This document shows, in pieces, positions 7,806 through 58,545 of a stretch of DNA of 64,000 bases (position 1 is the stretch's first letter; each line of letters begins with the position of its first letter). The DNA is taken from the NCBI RefSeq assembly GCF_000166135.1, contig NC_014666.1, positions 1,798,001 through 1,862,000 on the forward strand, in the 5' to 3' direction. Under the pieces are notes generated by a model that made no database searches, was not told the DNA's origin, and worked only from the letters and a program-made list of their open reading frames with translations. The DNA is from Pseudofrankia inefficax. Its GTDB lineage: Bacteria; Actinomycetota; Actinomycetes; Frankiales; Frankiaceae. The position numbers were made by a program, and so were the translations under genes.

Positions 7806-9266
7806 ATGGGCATCGAGCGCACGGTCCCCGCCGTACACCTGCACATCGGCGGCCAGGCACGGGCGGAGGGCACCGGCGGCATGGCCGAACACGTGTACCC
7901 CGCGACGGGAGAGGTCCAGGGCCTGGTCCCGCTCGCCGGGCCGGCCGACGTCGCGGAGGCCGTCGAGGCGGCACACGCTGCGTTTCCGGCCTGGCGCTCG
8001 TGGACGCCGGCGGAGCGCCGCGGCGTACTCGTCCGGCTCGCGGAGCTGATCAAGGCGGACGTCGCGGAGTTGGGCCGGTTGTCGGTGCTGGACAACGGGA
8101 TGACGCATCGCATCGGTCTGCACCTGGCGAGCGCGATGGCTGGCTACACGGAGTACTACGCCGGCTGGGCGGACAAGATCGAGGGCCGGGTCACCACGGC
8201 GCCGGCACAGCGCCGGGAACTCGCCTACACGATCCCCGAGCCTTACGGTGTCGTTGGGATCATCCTCACCTGGAACGGTCCGCTGATCTCGGTCGGGATG
8301 AAGGTCATCCCGGCGCTCGCGGCGGGCAACACCGTCGTCGTCAAGCCGTCCGAGCTGACGCCCTACGCGACCGAGCACCTGATGCGCCTCGTGCGTGAGG
8401 CGGGGATCCCGGACGGCGTGGTCAACCTGGTCCTCGGCGGCCCGGACGCGGGTGAGGCGCTCGTGCGCCATCCGCTCGTACAGAAAGTCAGCTTCACGGG
8501 CGGCCCCACGACCGCGCGGAAGATCCTCGCGTCGTGCGCGGAGTCGCTCAAGCCCGCGGTACTTGAGCTTGGCGGCAAGTCAGCCAACCTCGTCTTCCCG
8601 GACGCCGACCTTGATCGCGTCACTCTGATCAACACGTCGTCGGTGTTCGAGACGTTGGCGGGCCAGGGCTGCGCGATCCCGTCGCGGCTGCTCGTGCACG
8701 AGTCGGTCTACGACGAGGTCGCAGAGAAGGTCATCGCGCGGGTGCGCTCGCTGCGGTTCGGGGATCCGTTCGACCCGACGACCAACGTCAGCCCGGTGGT
8801 CACGCGCGCGGCCCGCGACCGGATCCTCGGGATGATCGACCGGGCGCGGTCGCAGGGCGCGGGCAGGCTGCTCGCTGGTGGCGGCGTGCCCGACGGCGTG
8901 CCGGCGGGCGGCTACTACGTCGAGCCGACGGTCTTCGGTGACGTCGTGCCGGACAGCGAGATCGCCCAGGTGGAGGTGTTCGGCCCGGTCCTGTCGCTGC
9001 TGCGGTTCTCCTCCGAGGAGGAGGCGGTCGCGATCGCGAACAGCACGTCCTACGGCTTGGCGGCCTACGTGAACACCCGCGACATCGGCCGGGTCAACCG
9101 GCTGACGTCCCAGCTGCGCGCCGGCGGGGTCTATGTCAACGGAGCTCCGCCGGTCGTCGGCTATGAACTGCCCTTCGGAGGGGTGGGCATCTCCGGCTAC
9201 GGCCGTGAGGGCGGCCTGGAGGGCCTGCTGGAGTTCGTCCGCACGAAGGCCGTGGCGATCGCATGA
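7806..9266 (+). CDS. aldehyde dehydrogenase family protein
   Basis: This 486-residue NAD(P)-dependent aldehyde dehydrogenase shows the typical order: GVVGIILTWNGPL, KVIPALAAGNTVVVKPSE, the Rossmann turn SFTGG, ELGGKSANLVF, and the catalytic cysteine in ETLAGQGCAIPSRL. The usual GQ-x-C is here GQGC. The end is FGGVGISGYGREGG. An AGGAGGGTCTGTT RBS precedes the ATG. It starts a five-gene unit in which every stop overlaps the next start by four bases, so the steps it catalyses should belong with the SDR, HIBADH-like and CMD-like enzymes. Confidence 0.93.
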   Translation: MGIERTVPAVHLHIGGQARAEGTGGMAEHVYPATGEVQGLVPLAGPADVAEAVEAAHAAFPAWRSWTPAERRGVLVRLAELIKADVAELGRLSVLDNGMTHRIGLHLASAMAGYTEYYAGWADKIEGRVTTAPAQRRELAYTIPEPYGVVGIILTWNGPLISVGMKVIPALAAGNTVVVKPSELTPYATEHLMRLVREAGIPDGVVNLVLGGPDAGEALVRHPLVQKVSFTGGPTTARKILASCAESLKPAVLELGGKSANLVFPDADLDRVTLINTSSVFETLAGQGCAIPSRLLVHESVYDEVAEKVIARVRSLRFGDPFDPTTNVSPVVTRAARDRILGMIDRARSQGAGRLLAGGGVPDGVPAGGYYVEPTVFGDVVPDSEIAQVEVFGPVLSLLRFSSEEEAVAIANSTSYGLAAYVNTRDIGRVNRLTSQLRAGGVYVNGAPPVVGYELPFGGVGISGYGREGGLEGLLEFVRTKAVAIA

Positions 9267-11678: not shown

Positions 11679-12361
11679 GCCAGCCGCAGGGCACCCCGGC
11701 CGGTGCGATGGCACTGCAACTCCTGCTGACCGCCGAGCGGCTCTTCGCCGAGCACGGCATCGACGGGGTGTCCCTGCGGCAGATCGCCACCCAGGCCGGG
11801 TCTGGCAACAACTCGGCCGTGCACTACTACTTCGGCTCGAAACGACAGCTGATCGAAGCGATCTTCGCCCACCGCATGCCGCAGCTGGTCCAGCGGCGCG
11901 CGCTCCTGCTCGCCCGCATCGACCCCGACGACCTGCGAGCCCGATTCGAGGCACACCTGCTACCCGTGCTGGAGCTGGCAGAATCACCGGACAACTTCTA
12001 CGTGTCGTTCGTCGAACAGCTCCAACGTAGCGCCGAAGCCACCGGCGCCCTCGTCCAGTCGGGAGAGATCCGGCGGTCCCAGGACGCATTTCTCCACGAC
12101 ATGCGCCGCCTCGTCCCCCACGTCGAGGAACCTATCCGCACGATGCGCATCCGTGAGGTCCAGGAACTCGGCGTGCACGCCGCGGCCCGCCGCGAGCGGG
12201 CAATCGCGGCCGGCGAACAGGTCGTCCCCTTCGGCCTGTTCGTCAGCACCTTGATCGACGGTTTCACCGGACACCTCGCGGCTCCGGTGTCGCCAGAGAC
12301 CCGGCGATTCCTCGCCACGACCGACCAGACACTCCCGGCCATATCGCAGCCGGCACTCTGA
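11675..12361 (+). CDS. TetR family transcriptional regulator
   Basis: The 228-residue regulator begins with a TetR HTH (AERLFAEHGIDGVSLRQIA, then NNSAVHYYFGSKRQLIEAIF). It is the last gene of the five-gene coupled operon, sharing a GTGA overlap with the CMD gene, so it is probably autoregulated with the operon. The inverted repeat upstream of the aldehyde dehydrogenase gene is a candidate target. The C-terminal ligand domain is divergent. Confidence 0.88.
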   Translation: MSQPQGTPAGAMALQLLLTAERLFAEHGIDGVSLRQIATQAGSGNNSAVHYYFGSKRQLIEAIFAHRMPQLVQRRALLLARIDPDDLRARFEAHLLPVLELAESPDNFYVSFVEQLQRSAEATGALVQSGEIRRSQDAFLHDMRRLVPHVEEPIRTMRIREVQELGVHAAARRERAIAAGEQVVPFGLFVSTLIDGFTGHLAAPVSPETRRFLATTDQTLPAISQPAL

Positions 12362-49513: not shown

Positions 49514-51253
49514 GTGGGGGACGCGAGCGCAGAGCCGCAGGCGGAGAGCTGGGACTTCTTCGTCTCCTACACAACCGCTAACAAAACCTGGGCTGTCTGG
49601 GTGGCATGGCAATTGGAGGATGCCGGATACCGGGTGCTCATCCAGGAGTGGGATTTTGTGCCAGGATCAAACTGGCACGCCCGCATGCAGCAAGGAGTCC
49701 TCTTTTCGCAGCGAACGATTGCGCTGCTTTCAAACGCCTATCTCAATTCGGTCTATGGGCAACAAGAATGGCAGGCGGCCCAACAGGCCGACCCGCAGGG
49801 TTTCAAGCGTAAGTTGCTACCTATCCGGATAGAGGACTGCCCGCGGCCAGGCCTGCTCGGTTTGGTCGTGTCCATCGACCTGTTCGGCCGCGATGCCGAC
49901 GACGCTCGCAGGCATCTGCTTGACAAGGTCGAACATGCAATCAAGGGTCGGGCAAAACCGCACGCGGCCCCAGACTTCCCACAGTTTGCGAAGGCCGCAA
50001 CCCCGCCCAACGAACCCGGGTTTCCTGCCGACAATACCCGACCAGACATGCCCATTCCCGATCCGCAAGCCCCACCTTTCTCGGGTCAGTCGATCCGGGC
50101 CGTTCTCGATTCGCGCCCGACAGAAGCGCCGTATGACCAAAATTCTTCGGAACCGCCTCCGTCCACGGGGGAATCAAGATCGTCTGCTGCGGATGCTCGG
50201 CCGAATCGAACTCTCTCGGATAACCCGACCTGGTCTGTCCCGGCTCCGCCCCGCCGATCAAACCTCAATCGGGGGAGCAGGAGCCTCCCGGATCCACGCC
50301 CGGCGGGCGCGCCGCTACTCGGCCACACGCGCGGAGTGCGGTCGGTCTCGTTCAGCCCCGACGGTAAAATTCTCGCGACTGGCAGTAGTGACACAACTGT
50401 CCGGTTCTGGGACGTGACTGATTCCGCCCGCAGCGGCGAGAGCACCACACTACTCACCGATCACACCGGCGGAGTGAGTGCAGGAGTCTTCGGCTCATAC
50501 GCTCAGATTTTCGCCACATGTGGCGGCGATGTGAGGCTCTGGAATATGACCAATCCGGCGGCACCTCAACTCATCACTGCGTTGCCCAGACCGAGTCTTG
50601 GGGCCGTGAGAACCTTGGCGTTCAGCCCCGACGGCCGCACTCTCGCCACCGGCAGTGTCGACGCAATCGTGAGATTGTGGGATCTAAGAAATCCAGCCCA
50701 GCCCAGCCCGATCGCCACCCTTCCCACTCGACACACTGGCGTCGTGGGAGCATTGGCATTCAGTCCCGACGGGCACGCTCTTGCTACCGCGAGCAGCGAC
50801 GAATCGGTGCTGATATGGGACGTGGATAGACCCGGACGTCTTTTTGCCGAACTGAGCGGGGTAAATGCAGCAATGTGGGCAATTGCCTACAGCCCGGATG
50901 GGCGAACCCTCGTTTTCGGCGGCGAACGCCAGTCGGTAATAATCTGGAACGTGGAGGACGCAAGGCGGCCCCGAAAGATTGCCGCCCGGCTCGGCAGCCA
51001 CGCCGAGGGGGTTCGTTCCCTAGTATTCAGTCCCGACGGTTCAATGCTCTTCACGGGATCTGTCAATCAAACAGTCCGGATATGGGATGTGGCCAACCCG
51101 GTCCGACCGTCGCTAATCGACGATCTGGTAACTGCACACACTGGCATCGTGAATGCGATGGCATTTAGTCCGGACGGGCGGAAGCTCGCCACCGGAAGTA
51201 GTGATACTACTGTTCAGCTCTGGCAGACGCGCCCATCCGAGCAAGGCACCTAA
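49514..51253 (+). CDS. TIR domain-WD40 repeat protein
   Basis: The 579-residue protein (GTG start) has an N-terminal bacterial TIR domain, residues 12-150: WDFFVSYTTANKTWAVWVAW, IQEWDFVPGSNW, TIALLSNAYLNSVYGQQEWQ, LPIRIEDC. A Glu (in QQEW) sits where NAD-cleaving TIR enzymes keep their catalytic Glu. After a Pro/Ser-rich linker there are WD40 blades (SFSPDGKILATGSSDTTVRF then W, AFSPDGRTLATGSVDAIVRL then W, and others), about six in all. GC content and codon use are lower than in the neighbours, suggesting transfer. TIR-WD40 proteins are thought to sense invaders and deplete NAD; the trigger here is unknown. Confidence 0.88.
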   Translation: MGDASAEPQAESWDFFVSYTTANKTWAVWVAWQLEDAGYRVLIQEWDFVPGSNWHARMQQGVLFSQRTIALLSNAYLNSVYGQQEWQAAQQADPQGFKRKLLPIRIEDCPRPGLLGLVVSIDLFGRDADDARRHLLDKVEHAIKGRAKPHAAPDFPQFAKAATPPNEPGFPADNTRPDMPIPDPQAPPFSGQSIRAVLDSRPTEAPYDQNSSEPPPSTGESRSSAADARPNRTLSDNPTWSVPAPPRRSNLNRGSRSLPDPRPAGAPLLGHTRGVRSVSFSPDGKILATGSSDTTVRFWDVTDSARSGESTTLLTDHTGGVSAGVFGSYAQIFATCGGDVRLWNMTNPAAPQLITALPRPSLGAVRTLAFSPDGRTLATGSVDAIVRLWDLRNPAQPSPIATLPTRHTGVVGALAFSPDGHALATASSDESVLIWDVDRPGRLFAELSGVNAAMWAIAYSPDGRTLVFGGERQSVIIWNVEDARRPRKIAARLGSHAEGVRSLVFSPDGSMLFTGSVNQTVRIWDVANPVRPSLIDDLVTAHTGIVNAMAFSPDGRKLATGSSDTTVQLWQTRPSEQGT

Positions 51254-51867: not shown

Positions 51868-54006
51868 CTACAGGTCGGCGCGGGCGCGGTGGGCTTCGCG
51901 GATGGCGTCGGCTCGGGCGCCTTTGCGGACCTGCCCGTCTCGGCGGACGTCGACCGAGGGCACGCCGAAGGCGCGAAGCTGGGCGCTGATCGCCTCAGCT
52001 GTGGCGTCTCGGTAGTGCTCTGGGTAGGCGGTCGCGAGACGGATGGCCAGCTCGGCCCAGTGGAGCCCGGGGGCGCCGTCCGCGAAGACCGACAGCGCAT
52101 CGGCCAGGACGTCGCGCTGCTCGCGGTGGGCGATCTGTCCGGCTGCTTGGCCGGACAGGGTGCCGGTGAACTCGCGGAGTTTGCGGGCGATGGCGAGAAG
52201 GTGTGCGGCGTCCTCGGCGTCCGCGAGGTAGGTGCGGACGGTCGGGTTCGTGTCGCTGGCGCCGCGGAGGATGCCGGCGCCTTTGTGCTCGGCCGTTAGG
52301 GTCGAGGAGTCGAGCCCTTCGCTGAAGGCGCCCGCGCCGAGGACCAGGTCAGAGACCTGCCATGATCCAGTGCGTAGCGCGAAGCGGACGAGGTGGTTGT
52401 CGCGGTAGTCGGTGAACTTTTTCGCGACGTCGCCGCTACCGATCCCCGAGGGCCGCTGTGTGGCGCTGCCGATGATGACGCCGGCCGCTGGGGCGACCCT
52501 GATCAGATAGACCAGCAGCGTGGCTATTTCGCTGTCGGCCGCGGGGTTGCCGGTCGCGAACCATTCTTGAAACTCGTCCAGCAGGAGCAGCCGGACGGGC
52601 ATGCCGTACTTGGGGTCACGTGAGATCTCCCGGGTCAGCTTGCCCTCGGGCACCACGTCTGGTGGCAGGTCCGAGAGTGCCAGGTAACGCGCTTGGACGT
52701 CGGACCGGATCTCGCGCAACGTGTCGATGAGAATCTCGACCGGGTCGCCGTCGCGGGTAGGCGCCAGCCCGAAGACGGCTCGGTCCGCGATGGCCTCGAA
52801 CTTGCGCCAGTCGGGTTTCCCGCCACCGTCGGCCACGGTGATCCTTACGTACGGGTCGAGAGCGGCGAACAGGCCGAGCGACCGGAGCGCGAACGTCTTG
52901 CCTTGCCGGGGTTGGGCGCCGACCAGGATCGAGTTCCACATCAGGTCGACCGTCACGGGTCGGGCGCGTTCGTCCAGCCCGAACGGCGCGGGCGTCCAGA
53001 TGTCCGTGGGCCTCCCGCGCAGGAGCGGCGTTCGTCCTGCGGGTATCGCGAGGGGGTCACGGTCGGCTACCCAGAGGGTGTGGCGTCGGTGCGACGTGGG
53101 ATCGCGGGTGAGGAAGACTTGGGTGACCGCGACGTCGAGGCCGGAGGCGATGGCGCCGTGAGCCTTGACGGCGTCGGTGAACCCGCGGCCGTAGGGAAGA
53201 TCGACCGCGACGCGGGAGCCGTCGCCGTCCCTGGCCATCGGCGAGCCGAAGGTCACCCGTTGATCGTCTTTGTCCGCTCCAAGCCGCGCGGCGTAGTAGG
53301 CGCGTAGGACGACGTCAGCGTTGAGCTTGCGGAATCGTGGCGTGACGATCGCGGGTGCGATCAACGGTCCTCCTGCCGGTCGCCCGGCACGCGCGAGCAC
53401 GGCCACGAGCAGTGCGACGGTCAGCGCGGTCGCGGGCCACGGAGCGTTCGCCAGCGCGGGCAGTGTGGCCGTCAACGCGGCGAGGATCGCGCCGCCGGCG
53501 ACGACGGTCAGGCCGGTGCGCGTTCGGCGGGTGGACCGCGCTTCGCGGTCCAGGCGTAGCCAGGCCGCGCTGTCGCCGCTGTCGACTGCGGCCCGGCGAA
53601 GCGGCGCGGACTCGGCGCATGCCCACCACCGGACGAGTCGGGCGACCAGGCGGCACGCGCCGAGGACCGAGGCCCGTGCCACAACGATCAGGTACCAGGG
53701 TGCGCGAACGGCATGGAAGGCGCCGATGTGCGCCCATCGGCCGCTCGTATGCCGGAGGGTAGGACCGAGCCGGCTGCTGCGGAGTTGCTCGGGGATGACC
53801 GGTCGGCGCCCGATATCGGCCGGTCGGTCGCCCGAGGGGTCGACGGGCGCGAGCCGGCCGTCGGGTCTCTGGTCGATCGGCCATTCGTAGCTACGCTCCT
53901 GCGTACCCGTCGCAGCGGGCAACATCGGCCTGATTTCGGCCAGGACAGCGGGGATGTCCGGTACCCAGCCCGATTGTTCGGCCGGCACGGGCAGGTTGTC
54001 CGTCAT
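51868..54006 (-). CDS. FtsK/SpoIIIE-type DNA transfer ATPase (TraB-like)
   Basis: The 712-residue protein is the double-stranded DNA translocase of actinobacterial conjugative elements. Two hydrophobic segments (about residues 101-125 and 165-205) anchor it. Walker A is GAQPRQGKT (363-371) and Walker B is RLLLLDEFQEWF (about 465). RIHL-like arginine and sensor regions follow (GVIIGSATQRPSG). The last 60 residues, starting AEAISAQLRAFGVPSVDVRR, form a short winged-helix gamma-like domain that would recognise clt repeats. It transfers the element as dsDNA between hyphae. It is the last gene of the spd-tra run. Confidence 0.9.
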   Translation of the reverse strand: MTDNLPVPAEQSGWVPDIPAVLAEIRPMLPAATGTQERSYEWPIDQRPDGRLAPVDPSGDRPADIGRRPVIPEQLRSSRLGPTLRHTSGRWAHIGAFHAVRAPWYLIVVARASVLGACRLVARLVRWWACAESAPLRRAAVDSGDSAAWLRLDREARSTRRTRTGLTVVAGGAILAALTATLPALANAPWPATALTVALLVAVLARAGRPAGGPLIAPAIVTPRFRKLNADVVLRAYYAARLGADKDDQRVTFGSPMARDGDGSRVAVDLPYGRGFTDAVKAHGAIASGLDVAVTQVFLTRDPTSHRRHTLWVADRDPLAIPAGRTPLLRGRPTDIWTPAPFGLDERARPVTVDLMWNSILVGAQPRQGKTFALRSLGLFAALDPYVRITVADGGGKPDWRKFEAIADRAVFGLAPTRDGDPVEILIDTLREIRSDVQARYLALSDLPPDVVPEGKLTREISRDPKYGMPVRLLLLDEFQEWFATGNPAADSEIATLLVYLIRVAPAAGVIIGSATQRPSGIGSGDVAKKFTDYRDNHLVRFALRTGSWQVSDLVLGAGAFSEGLDSSTLTAEHKGAGILRGASDTNPTVRTYLADAEDAAHLLAIARKLREFTGTLSGQAAGQIAHREQRDVLADALSVFADGAPGLHWAELAIRLATAYPEHYRDATAEAISAQLRAFGVPSVDVRRDGQVRKGARADAIREAHRARADL

Positions 54007-55762: not shown

Positions 55763-56149
55763 ATGCACACCCACGACAGGCCGGACGTCGAGACGGTCGA
55801 AACGCTCCTCGGCAAGGCCCGGCGCCACGGCGCCGGAGCCGCCGAGCTGGCACGACACAGACCCGACCTGGTCGACCTGCTCACCCCGCCCGACGGGACC
55901 AGCCCGAAAACACGGGCCTTACTCGCCGAGCGGATCATCAGGGCCGCGATCGACCGGCTCGACCCGCCAGCGGACAGCGCCATGAGGGCTCTGTTCGGCC
56001 TGACGGCCGAGACCCGGCGCAGGAGCGTCGCCTACCGCCGAGACGAGGCGGCGCGCCTCATATGCCTCACTCCCGGCGCCTTCCGGCGTCCCAACCGGGA
56101 GGGCTCCATGATCCTCGACATCGCCTTCGAGATCGTGACCGCGGAGTGA
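55763..56149 (+). CDS. hypothetical protein of the second element, 128 aa
   Basis: This all-helical soluble protein (VETVETLLGKARRHGAGAAE, then LLAERIIRAAIDRLDPP, then TRRRSVAYRRDEAARLIC) is divergent from the spd-tra operon. Its C-terminal half has a DNA-binding look, but no clear HTH is visible. It ends 121 bp before the operator of the next gene. Function unknown; a regulator of transfer or replication is a guess. Confidence 0.55.
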   Translation: MHTHDRPDVETVETLLGKARRHGAGAAELARHRPDLVDLLTPPDGTSPKTRALLAERIIRAAIDRLDPPADSAMRALFGLTAETRRRSVAYRRDEAARLICLTPGAFRRPNREGSMILDIAFEIVTAE

Positions 56150-56255: not shown

Positions 56256-56271
56256 CGTTACGATCGTAACG
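56256..56271. promoter_or_regulatory. 16-bp palindrome overlapping the start codon
   Basis: The perfect palindrome CGTTACGATCGTAACG ends on the first base of the GTG start of the following gene. Its right half, GATCGTAACG, recurs four times within that gene and a degenerate fifth copy follows. Binding here would block initiation or transcription, which fits autorepression. Confidence 0.65.
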
Positions 56272-57347
56272 TGACGATCGATACTGCCTGCCGGTGCGGC
56301 TGCGGTGCCCTTGTGCCTGCGGCGCCCGCCCGCGGTGGCCGGTCCCCGGCATGGGCCACGAACGCGTGCCGTCAACGGGCGTACCGGCGCCGGACGGCCG
56401 CCCTTTCCACCGGCCCGGTAGATCCACCGAGCGTCGCTCCGTTGCTCGCAGCGATCCGTGACCTTGCCGGACTCCTTGACGGCGGCCAGGCGCCCACCGC
56501 CGACCAGGCTGCCGCCGTGGCCGACGGAGCTAACGCACTTCTCACCCGCGCGGGAACGTCCGCCCGCATCAAGGTGGCGTCCGATCGTAACGAGACGATC
56601 GAAACGAGCAGCTCAGGCCATAGCGCGAGCCGTCCGCGGCGTGCGCCGGCCGCTGCTCCGGCCGATCGTAACGAGACGACTGAGCCGGGCGGTCCGGCCC
56701 ACAGTGCGAGCCGGGCCGAGCCGGGCCCAGTCGCTCTGGCGGCCGATCGTAACGAGACAACCGACACGGCGGCCCCGCGCGCGAGTCGCCGTGCGCGTGC
56801 CCTGATCACTCCACCGGCCGATCGTAACGAGACGACCGAAACGAGCGCCCCGGCTAAGGGCGTGAACCGTCCCGAACCCGTGCCAGCGTCCGATCGTCAC
56901 GGGACAAACGAACTGGTAGACGCGATGCGCGCAAACAGGGCCGCTCTTGAAGCCGCTGTGCGGGCAGTTCGGACCGCGCCCCCGGATGCGGTACCCGCGT
57001 TCGTGCGAGCGAGTGACGGCGGGTGGACGGTCGTGATGGGCGACGTCCCGATCGGAGTGCTACAGCCGACCTACGGGGTTCGGAGTCGCTCGGGCTGGGA
57101 AGCCCGCGACATCGCATCGATGGTGCCCCGCGGCCAGCATCCAACCCGGGCAGGCGCCGCTCTGCTGCTCGCCGATTCCCTGCTCAGGAGGCCCGACATC
57201 GCCGGTCGTCCCGACGACGTCGCGGAGGCCACCGTCCGGGCGTGGCGGGAGACCGGAGAGACATGGGCTCAGATCGGCGCCCGGGTCGGCTTGTCCAGTC
57301 GCGCGGCATCGAAGCGGTGGGGTCAGACGGCCGCTCATCGCGGCTAA
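56271..57347 (+). CDS. zinc-finger/HTH protein with five internal DRNET repeats
   Basis: The 358-residue product starts with a CxCxC...C finger (Cys7, 9, 11, 33) followed by NACRQRAYRRR, a motif common in actinobacterial element proteins. Residues about 105-210 contain five tandem units of 24-27 residues that each begin DRNET-(T/I)-E, the last degenerate (DRHGTNEL). The C-terminal 130 residues include an HTH (VRAWRETGETWAQIGARVGL, then SSRAASKRW). The DNA for each repeat begins with GATCGTAACGAGAC, that is, half of the operator at the start codon. Candidate roles are copy or replication control, or a repressor of element transfer. Confidence 0.7.
   Translation: MTIDTACRCGCGALVPAAPARGGRSPAWATNACRQRAYRRRTAALSTGPVDPPSVAPLLAAIRDLAGLLDGGQAPTADQAAAVADGANALLTRAGTSARIKVASDRNETIETSSSGHSASRPRRAPAAAPADRNETTEPGGPAHSASRAEPGPVALAADRNETTDTAAPRASRRARALITPPADRNETTETSAPAKGVNRPEPVPASDRHGTNELVDAMRANRAALEAAVRAVRTAPPDAVPAFVRASDGGWTVVMGDVPIGVLQPTYGVRSRSGWEARDIASMVPRGQHPTRAGAALLLADSLLRRPDIAGRPDDVAEATVRAWRETGETWAQIGARVGLSSRAASKRWGQTAAHRG
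56583..56907 (+). repeat. five spaced copies of GATCGTAACGAGAC inside the reading frame
   Basis: Copies lie at 56583, 56664, 56745, 56820 and 56892 (spacings 81, 81, 75 and 72). The first, second and fourth are identical over 16 bases (GATCGTAACGAGACGA), the third differs at one base, and the fifth reads GATCGTCACGGGACAA. All spacings are multiples of three, consistent with repeat expansion at protein level. The match to the upstream palindrome suggests the sites are also bound by a protein. Confidence 0.75.
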
Positions 57348-57411: not shown

Positions 57412-58545
57412 TCAACCTGCGAAGACGGCGAGCGCGTGTGCGGCGTCGCGGAGCGACCGAGGCGCGGCCGGTGAGCGCTTGACCGTGTCGGCCAGGCGGA
57501 CGATGCGGACGTTCAATCGCCCCGAGTGGCTGTCGTCCGCGGCGTCGACAATGTCTCGCACCGTGCCTTCCGCATCCCGCCATGCCCCCGCGAGAACCTG
57601 GCTCAGCGCGAGATTTGGGAGCGTCAGAGAGCAATACAGACTGTCGGGCCGCGTTTCGAGGTACTCCCGAAAGGCCCTGATGGCCAACTCGTGCTCGTCA
57701 AGATCCTTCAGCAGAAGTGCCTTTTGAAGTTCCATCTGCTCGTCGTCCAGCCACCACACCCAGTAAGGATCCGAATCGCGCACCCCGTCGCCGAACTCGG
57801 CGACGGCTCGTTGCCAAACTCTCCTCGACTCGTGGTCGCCGCGTGCCGCGAGCGCACGCGCTTCACGCACGTGGAACATCGCGGACAGCCGTGGTGAGAG
57901 CGGCTGGTCCAGGACGCCGCGCGCCAGATAGAGCGCTTCGGTGGCCCTGCCGGTCTCACACAGGTGCATGGATTCGTTCTGCAGAACGAATATCTCCATA
58001 CCGTGGTCACCGGCGACCGCCGCGTGGTGGAGTGCTCGGCTGTTGGCGTGGTCCACATCAGTCGGCCGCGCGGCATCGACCAGGAGCCAGCCTGAGATCT
58101 CGAACAGCTCAGCGGCGACCGCGTGGGCTTCGGACTTGTAGCCGGGGCGGACACCTGCGTCGGTTATCCGGCGTTCGAATGCGCGGGCGGAGTCGACGGC
58201 AAGGTCCGCGATGCGGGTTCCTCCGAACGTGCGCTCCATGGCAAGCAGCTGTTTCACCCGGTCACGCGCACGTTCGGTGTGAAGGGGACCGACCGGCTCT
58301 GTCGGGCCGACCTGCACAGGATCATGAACCTTCTCGGGCTCGTCGCCGTTGAGAAGATGATCTAGATCATCGAGCGATATTTGGAGGATCTCGGCCAGTG
58401 GCGCGCGGGTCGCGGGCTGCGGCGCTACCTCGCCGCGTTCCCACCGGGCGACTGTCGACCGGGCGGTTTCCAGCGCCTCGGCGAGGCCCTCCTGCGAGAG
58501 ACCGACAGCTTTGCGCCGGGCGGCAAGTCCGGGGCGCTTCTCCAT
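57412..58545 (-). CDS. XRE-family regulator with TPR-like C-terminus
   Basis: The 377-residue regulator starts with a Cro/CI HTH (LAARRKAVGLSQEGLAEALE, then TARSTVARWERGEVAPQPAT, residues 6-55). A linker and a helical TPR-like domain follow (AAELFEISGWLLVDAARPTD, LALSQVLAGAWRDAEGTV). It is convergent to the DRNET-repeat gene with a 64-bp gap and divergent from the 169-residue gene at 58728. Such regulators often control morphological or secondary-metabolic genes; its target here is not readable. Confidence 0.85.
   Translation of the reverse strand: MEKRPGLAARRKAVGLSQEGLAEALETARSTVARWERGEVAPQPATRAPLAEILQISLDDLDHLLNGDEPEKVHDPVQVGPTEPVGPLHTERARDRVKQLLAMERTFGGTRIADLAVDSARAFERRITDAGVRPGYKSEAHAVAAELFEISGWLLVDAARPTDVDHANSRALHHAAVAGDHGMEIFVLQNESMHLCETGRATEALYLARGVLDQPLSPRLSAMFHVREARALAARGDHESRRVWQRAVAEFGDGVRDSDPYWVWWLDDEQMELQKALLLKDLDEHELAIRAFREYLETRPDSLYCSLTLPNLALSQVLAGAWRDAEGTVRDIVDAADDSHSGRLNVRIVRLADTVKRSPAAPRSLRDAAHALAVFAG

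Follow-up and report, generated by a model that had tools for sequence, protein, structure and literature searches.

A zinc-finger gene on a chromosome-size contig (8,815,781 bp) of Pseudofrankia inefficax probably works like the SpdA/sps locus of Streptomyces plasmids, enlarged and diverged and carried on an integrative element, with autorepression at its start and a further role for an array of sites written into its coding region. The gene (Table 1) lies in the window, a stretch of 64,000 nucleotides at positions 1798001–1862000 of this contig. Self-carried binding sites in a finger gene are already known from Streptomyces plasmids, as shown in the available text on SpdA2 of pIJ101 (Thoma et al. 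2014, PMC4170104). New here are the six sites, the shifted site sequence, the three reading frames of the site, and the presence of this finger, together with an embedded CGTGAYGAAA motif, in TetR-, MerR- and Mom-like proteins.

A half-site repeated at the start and inside the gene

The original prediction described a palindrome ending at the first base of a GTG start, whose half-site recurs inside the gene. The repeated half-site is a real observation, and both the palindrome and the four internal recurrences were confirmed in the sequence. Exact copies of GATCGTAACG stand at six places in the window: 56256 (−), 56262 (+), 56583, 56664, 56745 and 56820. Copies with one mismatch are at 56270 (−), 56597 and 56892 and at five other positions of the window. 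Of 100 dinucleotide shuffles, none gave as many as these 14 occurrences with at most one mismatch, the shuffled count being 3.72 ± 1.75. The start site is better described as the 18-bp palindrome GATCGTAACGTGACGATC, which overlaps the 16-bp one and has its centre at the start codon, and its core CGTAACGTGACG is one base from sps CGTCACGTGACG, the site of SpdA2.

The internal copies start 81, 81, 75 and 72 nt apart (27, 27, 25 and 24 codons), a near-regular spacing as had been noted. Five internal repeats encoding DRNET had been claimed: four are exact and do so, while the fifth, at 56892, is weak with one mismatch and reads DRHGTN. All five are in frame and begin GAT CGT, followed by AAC GAG in four and by CAC GGG in the fifth. 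One half (GATCGTAACG) is kept in the internal sites and the centre is altered to CGAGAC, so that they are imperfect palindromes and may bind weakly; relative to sps, the start copy is one base off and the internal copies are two or more off. Across the whole contig, five occurrences of GATCGTAACGAGAC were counted at up to one mismatch, and each of them is at the finger gene. A site search of the same genome that tolerated one mismatch gave seven forward sites, four of which fell outside the finger gene, apparently by chance.

Table 1 Features of the finger gene and its surroundings (positions in the window)
Feature	Position	Strand	Basis or remark
CDS, GTG start, 358 aa	56271..57347	+	open reading frame
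Finger-coding segment, residues 7-41, CRCGCG...ACRQRAYRRR	56289..56393	+	profile matches
Region for residues 106-211, holding most DRNET repeats, predicted disordered	56586..56903	+	AlphaFold2
16-bp palindrome CGTTACGATCGTAACG	56256..56271	.	last base is first base of GTG at 56271
Near-perfect 18-bp sps-like palindrome GATCGTAACGTGACGATC, one pair mismatched	56262..56279	.	0 mismatches to GRTCRTNACGTNAYGAYC
Putative -10 element TACGAT, 6 nt before GTG, of predicted leaderless promoter	56259..56264	+	TANNNT survey
Internal site 1, GATCGTAACGAGACGATC, DRNETI	56583..56600	+
Internal site 2, GATCGTAACGAGACGACT, DRNETT	56664..56681	+
Internal site 3, GATCGTAACGAGACAACC, DRNETT	56745..56762	+
Internal site 4, GATCGTAACGAGACGACC, DRNETT	56820..56837	+
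Weak internal site 5, GATCGTCACGGGACAAAC, DRHGTN	56892..56909	+
128-aa gene upstream	55763..56149	+	homologue on contig of relative L025
712-aa ATPase, FtsK/TraB-like by eye	51868..54006	−	homologues near relatives L025 and L026

The finger protein and its surroundings

The 358-aa protein is predicted to comprise an N-terminal finger, a helical segment, a disordered repeat region and a C-terminal beta/helical domain. In the AlphaFold2 model, built on a shallow alignment of 8, the 10-residue blocks of residues 106–211 mostly have pLDDT values of 31–42, mostly below 50 and without secondary structure, and the C-terminus is modelled with low confidence. Searches of Pfam and NCBIfam gave no family above cut-off and no replication family, a Foldseek search of the model returned nothing at E ≤ 0.001, and tblastn of the whole protein against the plasmids, phages, genome_contigs and viral_contigs sets found no relative. 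As for the proposed zinc-finger/HTH nature of the protein, the finger part stands through its profile link to SpdA2, whereas the HTH part is weak, given the HTH_23 match in Pfam at E 0.41 and 11 bits against a cut-off of 24.6 and the low-confidence C-terminus.

Genes outside annotated records were called with a simple G+C-based script. The FtsK-like gene (by eye) lies 2.3 kb from the finger gene and an integrase gene, at contig position 1863436, lies 8 kb from it and 1.4 kb beyond the window, which suggests that the finger gene is carried by an integrative, mobile element. For the 712-aa ATPase, the Pfam match is below cut-off and NCBIfam gave none; the 128-aa upstream protein belongs to no known family in Pfam or NCBIfam. 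Adjoining the finger gene, 57412–58545 (−) encodes an XRE/TPR protein assigned to the NsdA family by NF053720 (139.8 bits; cut-off 75), and near the island edge 49514–51253 (+) encodes a TIR-like domain followed by WD40 repeats (by eye).

The DNA site is kept where the peptide changes

Outside the repeats, the finger gene uses GAC and GAT at 12 : 4 and CGT for 8 of 39 Arg residues. The 15-nt core is identical (15/15) in all six pairs among the four exact internal copies, and their 30-nt flanks agree at 9–18 of 30 positions on the left and 13–19 of 30 on the right. When codons were shuffled synonymously within the gene, four exact half-sites were reached in 4 of 20,000 trials; of 1500 trials scored for 18-mer sites with up to two mismatches, one reached the four seen in the gene. 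It is therefore well supported that the internal copies serve both as a coding repeat and as a DNA site, a double use that had been proposed at the outset and that codon usage, shuffles and the frames of relatives bear out. As part of the explanation we prefer, the codons of the disordered linker are probably fixed by the DNA site and not by the peptide.

The opposite reading, in which it is the peptide DRNET that is conserved and the DNA match arises as a side effect of recent tandem duplication, is in keeping with the single frame shared by the five window copies and with the relatedness of the repeat units. However, the flanks have diverged to 9–19 of 30 around an identical core, the rare codons GAT and CGT are used throughout, relatives use other frames and the region is predicted to be disordered, and on these grounds the protein-level tandem repeat was rejected as largely refuted and is very improbable.

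The protein matches in two of the eight genomes of the genus, its own included, and by tblastn in 10 of the 35 genomes of the family; the N-terminal profile A2 matches 13 of the 35, four of them weakly (G002, G005, G010 and G018). The palindrome GRTCRTCACGTGAYGAYC, or a form with one mismatch, is present in the genes of several relatives, several of which have the exact core CGTCACGTGACG. The relatives L025 and L026 carry five palindromes at corresponding places, before the promoter, at the start, mid-gene and over the stop codon: two are 51 bp apart around promoter and start, two are 71 bp apart mid-gene and one covers the stop. From the start onward, the in-frame readings (L025/L026) are DRHVMN/DRHVMT, RSSRDDR/RSSHDDR, DRHVTI/DRHVAT and IVT-stop. 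L027 and L028 each have a single internal copy in the RSSRDDR frame, and L031 has DRHVMT and GRHVTT copies, its upstream palindrome containing the predicted GTG of a divergent gene. Judged from these sequences, one DNA palindrome is read in three frames, and the DNA is conserved over the peptide. Relatives without the DNA motif had been named as the observation that would count against double use; the opposite was found, with the palindrome kept and the peptide changing with the frame.

Synonymous shuffles (n = 1500 each) reached the observed sites 0 times for L026, 14 for L025, 46 for L027, 59 for L028 and 34 for L031, a test that is weak for the three relatives with a single internal site (L027, L028 and L031) and moderate for L025. 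The reversed-pattern control of the 18-mer search in the family genomes contains CTAG, so its zero counts are flattering, and we relied on the shuffles, codon usage and frames instead; CTAG is rare in genomes of the Frankia family. The gene of G004, from the same genus, is apparently truncated (G004:C1:4891321-4891851): it lacks the finger part and retains two sites, GATCGTAACGAGACGACC and GATCGTAACGTGGCGACC, and its frame continues into unrelated sequence, so it is probably a remnant.

The exact 18-mer was found at 31 places in 15 of the 35 family genomes, 12 of them within or next to finger genes that we recognised, L130 on contig G019:C16 among them, and 19 elsewhere, several of the latter on contigs with ParA-, GntR- or FtsK-like genes (by eye). 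The site is therefore not exclusive to the finger family, and another protein might own it. In three Frankia contigs (L105 at 7253, L113 at 4771 and L109 at 2061), an intergenic 18-bp site is followed by (G/A)CTTTCGGCA(A/G)CC, and those of L105 and L113 also have a TTGACAATGTCAAC-like stretch before them; these sites perhaps mark a shared control or transfer region. The 18-mer had one match in viral_contigs, in a STAS-type gene (by eye), which was judged to be chance. A tblastn search of L026 in plasmids gave one weak match to its post-finger segment (62.5% over 40 residues, E 0.1) at 11827–11946 of the Frankia torreyi plasmid AY027524.1, where no gene is annotated.

Relation to SpdA and sps

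According to the available text of Thoma et al. 2014 (PMC4170104), SpdA2 of pIJ101 is a DNA-binding protein with a zinc-finger hit, which in EMSA shifts DNA carrying the 12-bp palindrome sps CGTCACGTGACG, and sps lies inside spdA2; sps occurs two to three times inside most spdA genes, where it encodes SRDD/E, and lies over the start codon in pSVH1. As far as that text goes, loss of spdA2 or sps lowered the segregational stability of pIJ303 after two sporulation cycles and left replication, copy number and transfer of pIJ101 unaffected, putative actinomycete regulators found by BLAST share the SpdA N-terminal segment, the S. coelicolor chromosome has a single sps, and SpdA homologues are reported on Streptomyces plasmids only; the word stem 'autoregul' is absent from the paper (PMC4170104).

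In pIJ101 (L216), sps lies at 8140 and 8173. The SpdA2 finger scored 33.7 bits (E 1.9e-10) against the general profile A3 and 17.4 bits (E 2.6e-5), over 36 positions, against A2, which includes the window protein, both E-values being computed for the frames of pIJ101 alone. From this finger match and the sps core in the Frankia palindrome, we conclude that the finger gene probably works like SpdA/sps and is related to it through the finger. The window finger itself scores 12.6 bits with A3 and was not found at E ≤ 0.001, so the link to SpdA2 runs through intermediates.

Thirteen SpdA loci, comprising pIJ101 and 12 of 22 further plasmid records, were compared. Site and peptide are CGTCACGTGACG with SRDE or SRDD in pIJ101, pJV1 and L218, CGTCAACTGACG with STDE in L221 and L224, and CGTCAGTTGTCG with SVVE in L228; among the 13, no site was seen in L226. 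SRDE thus goes with CACGTG, STDE with CAACTG and SVVE with CAGTTGTCG. The fingers also differ (for example SCRQRAY and THRELAY), and a joint change of site and finger is seen by eye across the 13 loci. A plasmid recorded from Pseudomonas sp. SK2 (NZ_CP061946.1) is 100% identical to pIJ101 over 107 SpdA2 residues, and is possibly a shuttle vector or contamination.

The likeness to SpdA/sps thus comprises a related zinc finger, a palindrome inside the gene or, in pSVH1, over the start, similar cores (CGTCACGTGACG there and CGTAACGTGACG in the window), and a site that encodes peptide (SRDD/E there and RSSRDDR in Frankia relatives). In contrast, the window gene has up to six sites, a shifted site sequence, the DRNET frame and an extra C-terminal domain, and its finger, with CRCGCG, does not begin with CxxC as that of SpdA2 does (by eye). 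Since the window protein has 358 aa, against 117–163 aa for published SpdA, and is encoded on a chromosome-size Frankia contig rather than near rep/sso or traB on a Streptomyces plasmid, we do not file it as a member of SpdA.

Other known systems resemble the window gene in part. In E. coli, lac O2 and gal OI are repressor sites inside a coding region that act with a promoter-proximal operator; they are likewise within coding sequence, but single and in target genes, whereas the window sites are repeated and in the putative regulator's own gene. TRS, the TraB clt repeats of Streptomyces conjugative plasmids, are a different 8-bp direct repeat, alike in being short repeats near or inside plasmid genes and beside an FtsK-like translocase. 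In phage lambda, ori-lambda lies within the O gene, and repeated inverted-repeat sites stand inside the binding protein's own coding sequence (PMC5043065, available text).

With this precedent (PMC5043065, in the same text), with palindromes repeated within a gene whose element is probably mobile and with the integrase gene 1.4 kb past the window, the array could be an iteron-type replication origin or a handcuffing array, as the original prediction had put forward. However, pIJ101 replicates at normal copy number without spdA2 or sps, and sps affects its stability instead (PMC4170104, available text). Ten 200-bp bins from 55600 contain 25–38% A+T, with no A+T-rich stretch near the finger gene, and the sites are wider apart than in lambda. 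At 7.7 turns, both 81-bp spacings fall out of helical phase, those of 75 and 72 being near whole turns, and related finger/motif pairs occur in TetR and MerR regulators. A replication role is not expected, and we consider an origin or handcuffing array highly improbable.

The finger and an embedded motif in other actinobacterial proteins

Profile A2 matched 40 loci in genome_contigs, most of them through the finger part. Ten proteins scanned with Pfam comprised five TetR proteins with three kinds of C-terminal domain (L056, L122, L124, L134 and L136), two MerR proteins (L071 and L121), a Mom-like protein below cut-off (L039), a LuxR protein (L041) and L026 without assignment; the finger is not named above cut-off by Pfam or NCBIfam in the proteins scanned. 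One of the finger/motif pairs in TetR and MerR regulators, L057, is on a 13-Mb contig. The best 50 of 848 Foldseek matches of a TetR-finger model are TetR-type regulators, with SimR at the top. The Mom-like protein of Streptomyces radicis, encoded in L039 (7500–8126), matches PF25680 at E 1.5e-4, short of the cut-off; it has its finger at the C-terminus, and tandem CGTGACGAAA is present as well. In loci such as L041, from Lentzea and others, a finger of the same kind is N-terminal and has no CGTGAYGAAA beside it.

RDE peptides stand directly before the finger in many of these fusion proteins. Taken by regular expression from 59 records, and counting those outside the Frankia family, 31 RDE/RNE peptides at 21 loci use CGT for Arg in 30 of 31 cases against a background of 5.3% (of 737), GAA for Glu in 30 of 31 against 18.7% (of 380) and GAT for Asp in 15 of 30 against 10.5% (of 296), the background being the same open frames; some of these loci are close relatives, so the 31 are not independent events. 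In 30 of 31 the codon that follows has A as its first base, and its residue varies (T, I, N, S, K or M); L066 is the exception for Arg, Glu and the next codon.

In a class-level search with A3, the finger was found in 62 of 246 genomes. At 125 distinct finger places, obtained by a profile search in place of the regular expression and with identical contexts removed, CGTNAYGANA lies within 110 nt upstream in 35 and is absent there in 90; at its rate elsewhere in the same loci (0.034 per kb), about 0.5 would be expected. The profile was made from 13 fingers, 11 of them with the motif, and excluding these 13 rows leaves 24 of 112. The RDE frame (phase 0) accounts for 38 matches, and other frames or the other strand for 12. 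In a reverse test with DNA alone across 393 genomes, tandem CGTGAYGAAA occurred at seven places, six beside a finger (four already known), and inverted pairs at four places, two beside a finger (one already known). In our literature search, which covered few subscription journals, neither the Frankia case nor the motif inside regulator fusions was found to be described, and with four spellings of the motif none of the matches listed was about it.

The fusion motif sits just 5' of the finger segment whatever comes before, as would be seen if it marked a boundary of recombination or fusion and so carried the finger module from gene to gene. That reading has little probability, since copies also flank promoters and a stop codon, and in the window the copies follow the finger segment, starting 190 to 499 nt past it.

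Predicted leaderless promoters at the start sites

Leaderless genes in high-G+C bacteria are marked by TANNNT about 12 bp upstream of the start (PMC3160421, available text). TANNNT was found 6–7 nt before the start in 12 of 18 finger genes, whose start codons were chosen by us, against 2 of 51 called window genes; the six finger genes without it are L024, L122, L123, L130, L136 and L160. The TACGAT of the window lies within the 16-bp palindrome. Strict half-sites CGTNAYGA overlap TANNNT in the window, flank it on both sides in L025, L026, L027, L028, L031 and L124, and lie only downstream of it in L029, L032 and L125, and L127 and L214 have the inverted pair TTTCRTCAC...GTGAYGAAA on either side of it. 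Four genes (L124, L125, L127 and L214) have a CGTGAYGAAA copy immediately after the start codon, and in L025, L026 and L031 two palindromes 50–51 bp apart bracket the TANNNT promoter. Half-sites placed around TANNNT in this way have an operator-like geometry, from which we infer a promoter and its repression. A GATACGAACGTATC-like palindrome lies upstream of three finger-TetR genes (L124, L125 and L127), where it may act as operator for the TetR part or for a divergent gene.

Discussion

Under the SpdA/sps-like reading, the N-terminal zinc finger would bind palindromes built from the half-site (GAT)CGTNAYGA. One site cluster covers the putative -10 element and the GTG of the leaderless promoter, so that binding there should block transcription and lead to autorepression; control of its own start by the finger protein is plausible from this arrangement. 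The same protein may occupy the four to five further internal copies, which encode the disordered linker, and this internal array, as in pIJ101, probably serves maintenance of the element, through a nucleoprotein complex, and/or reinforces the autorepression by providing auxiliary operators.

A different weighting is possible but unlikely: the array would be centromere-like or serve positioning, with the protein as a partition adaptor and autoregulation in a minor role. It would agree with the fall in segregational stability of pIJ303 without spdA2 or sps (PMC4170104, available text). ParA-like genes (by eye) lie about 1–5 kb from sites or finger genes in L028, L031, L105 and L109. The parS site of ParB contains TCACGTGA, which is common to it and the sps core. 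However, no ParA was seen by eye among the called genes in the 44–64 kb part of the window, integrated elements require partition only when excised, and the motif is also present in TetR and MerR fusions.

Beyond the window gene, the chances seem about even that these loci represent a general actinobacterial module, a small zinc finger with its own site written into the adjoining or surrounding coding sequence, borne on unrelated proteins (TetR, MerR, Mom-like, SpdA and the Frankia family), in which site and finger change together and the peptides SRDE, STDE, SVVE, RDET, DRNET and DRHVTI are only the shadow of the site.

The SpdA/sps system, little studied and reported as confined to Streptomyces plasmids, is extended here to Frankia elements, and an embedded site of the SpdA kind is shown in regulators previously noted merely for sharing the finger. 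These genes are a clear bacterial example of a DNA site that, in three reading frames, determines which codons and even which residues a gene contains. With CGT at 30 of 31 against 5.3%, the codon signal makes a direct test by recoding easy. The findings suggest an identity for the unexplained RDE/RNE peptides beside the finger and a route to the binding code of the finger.
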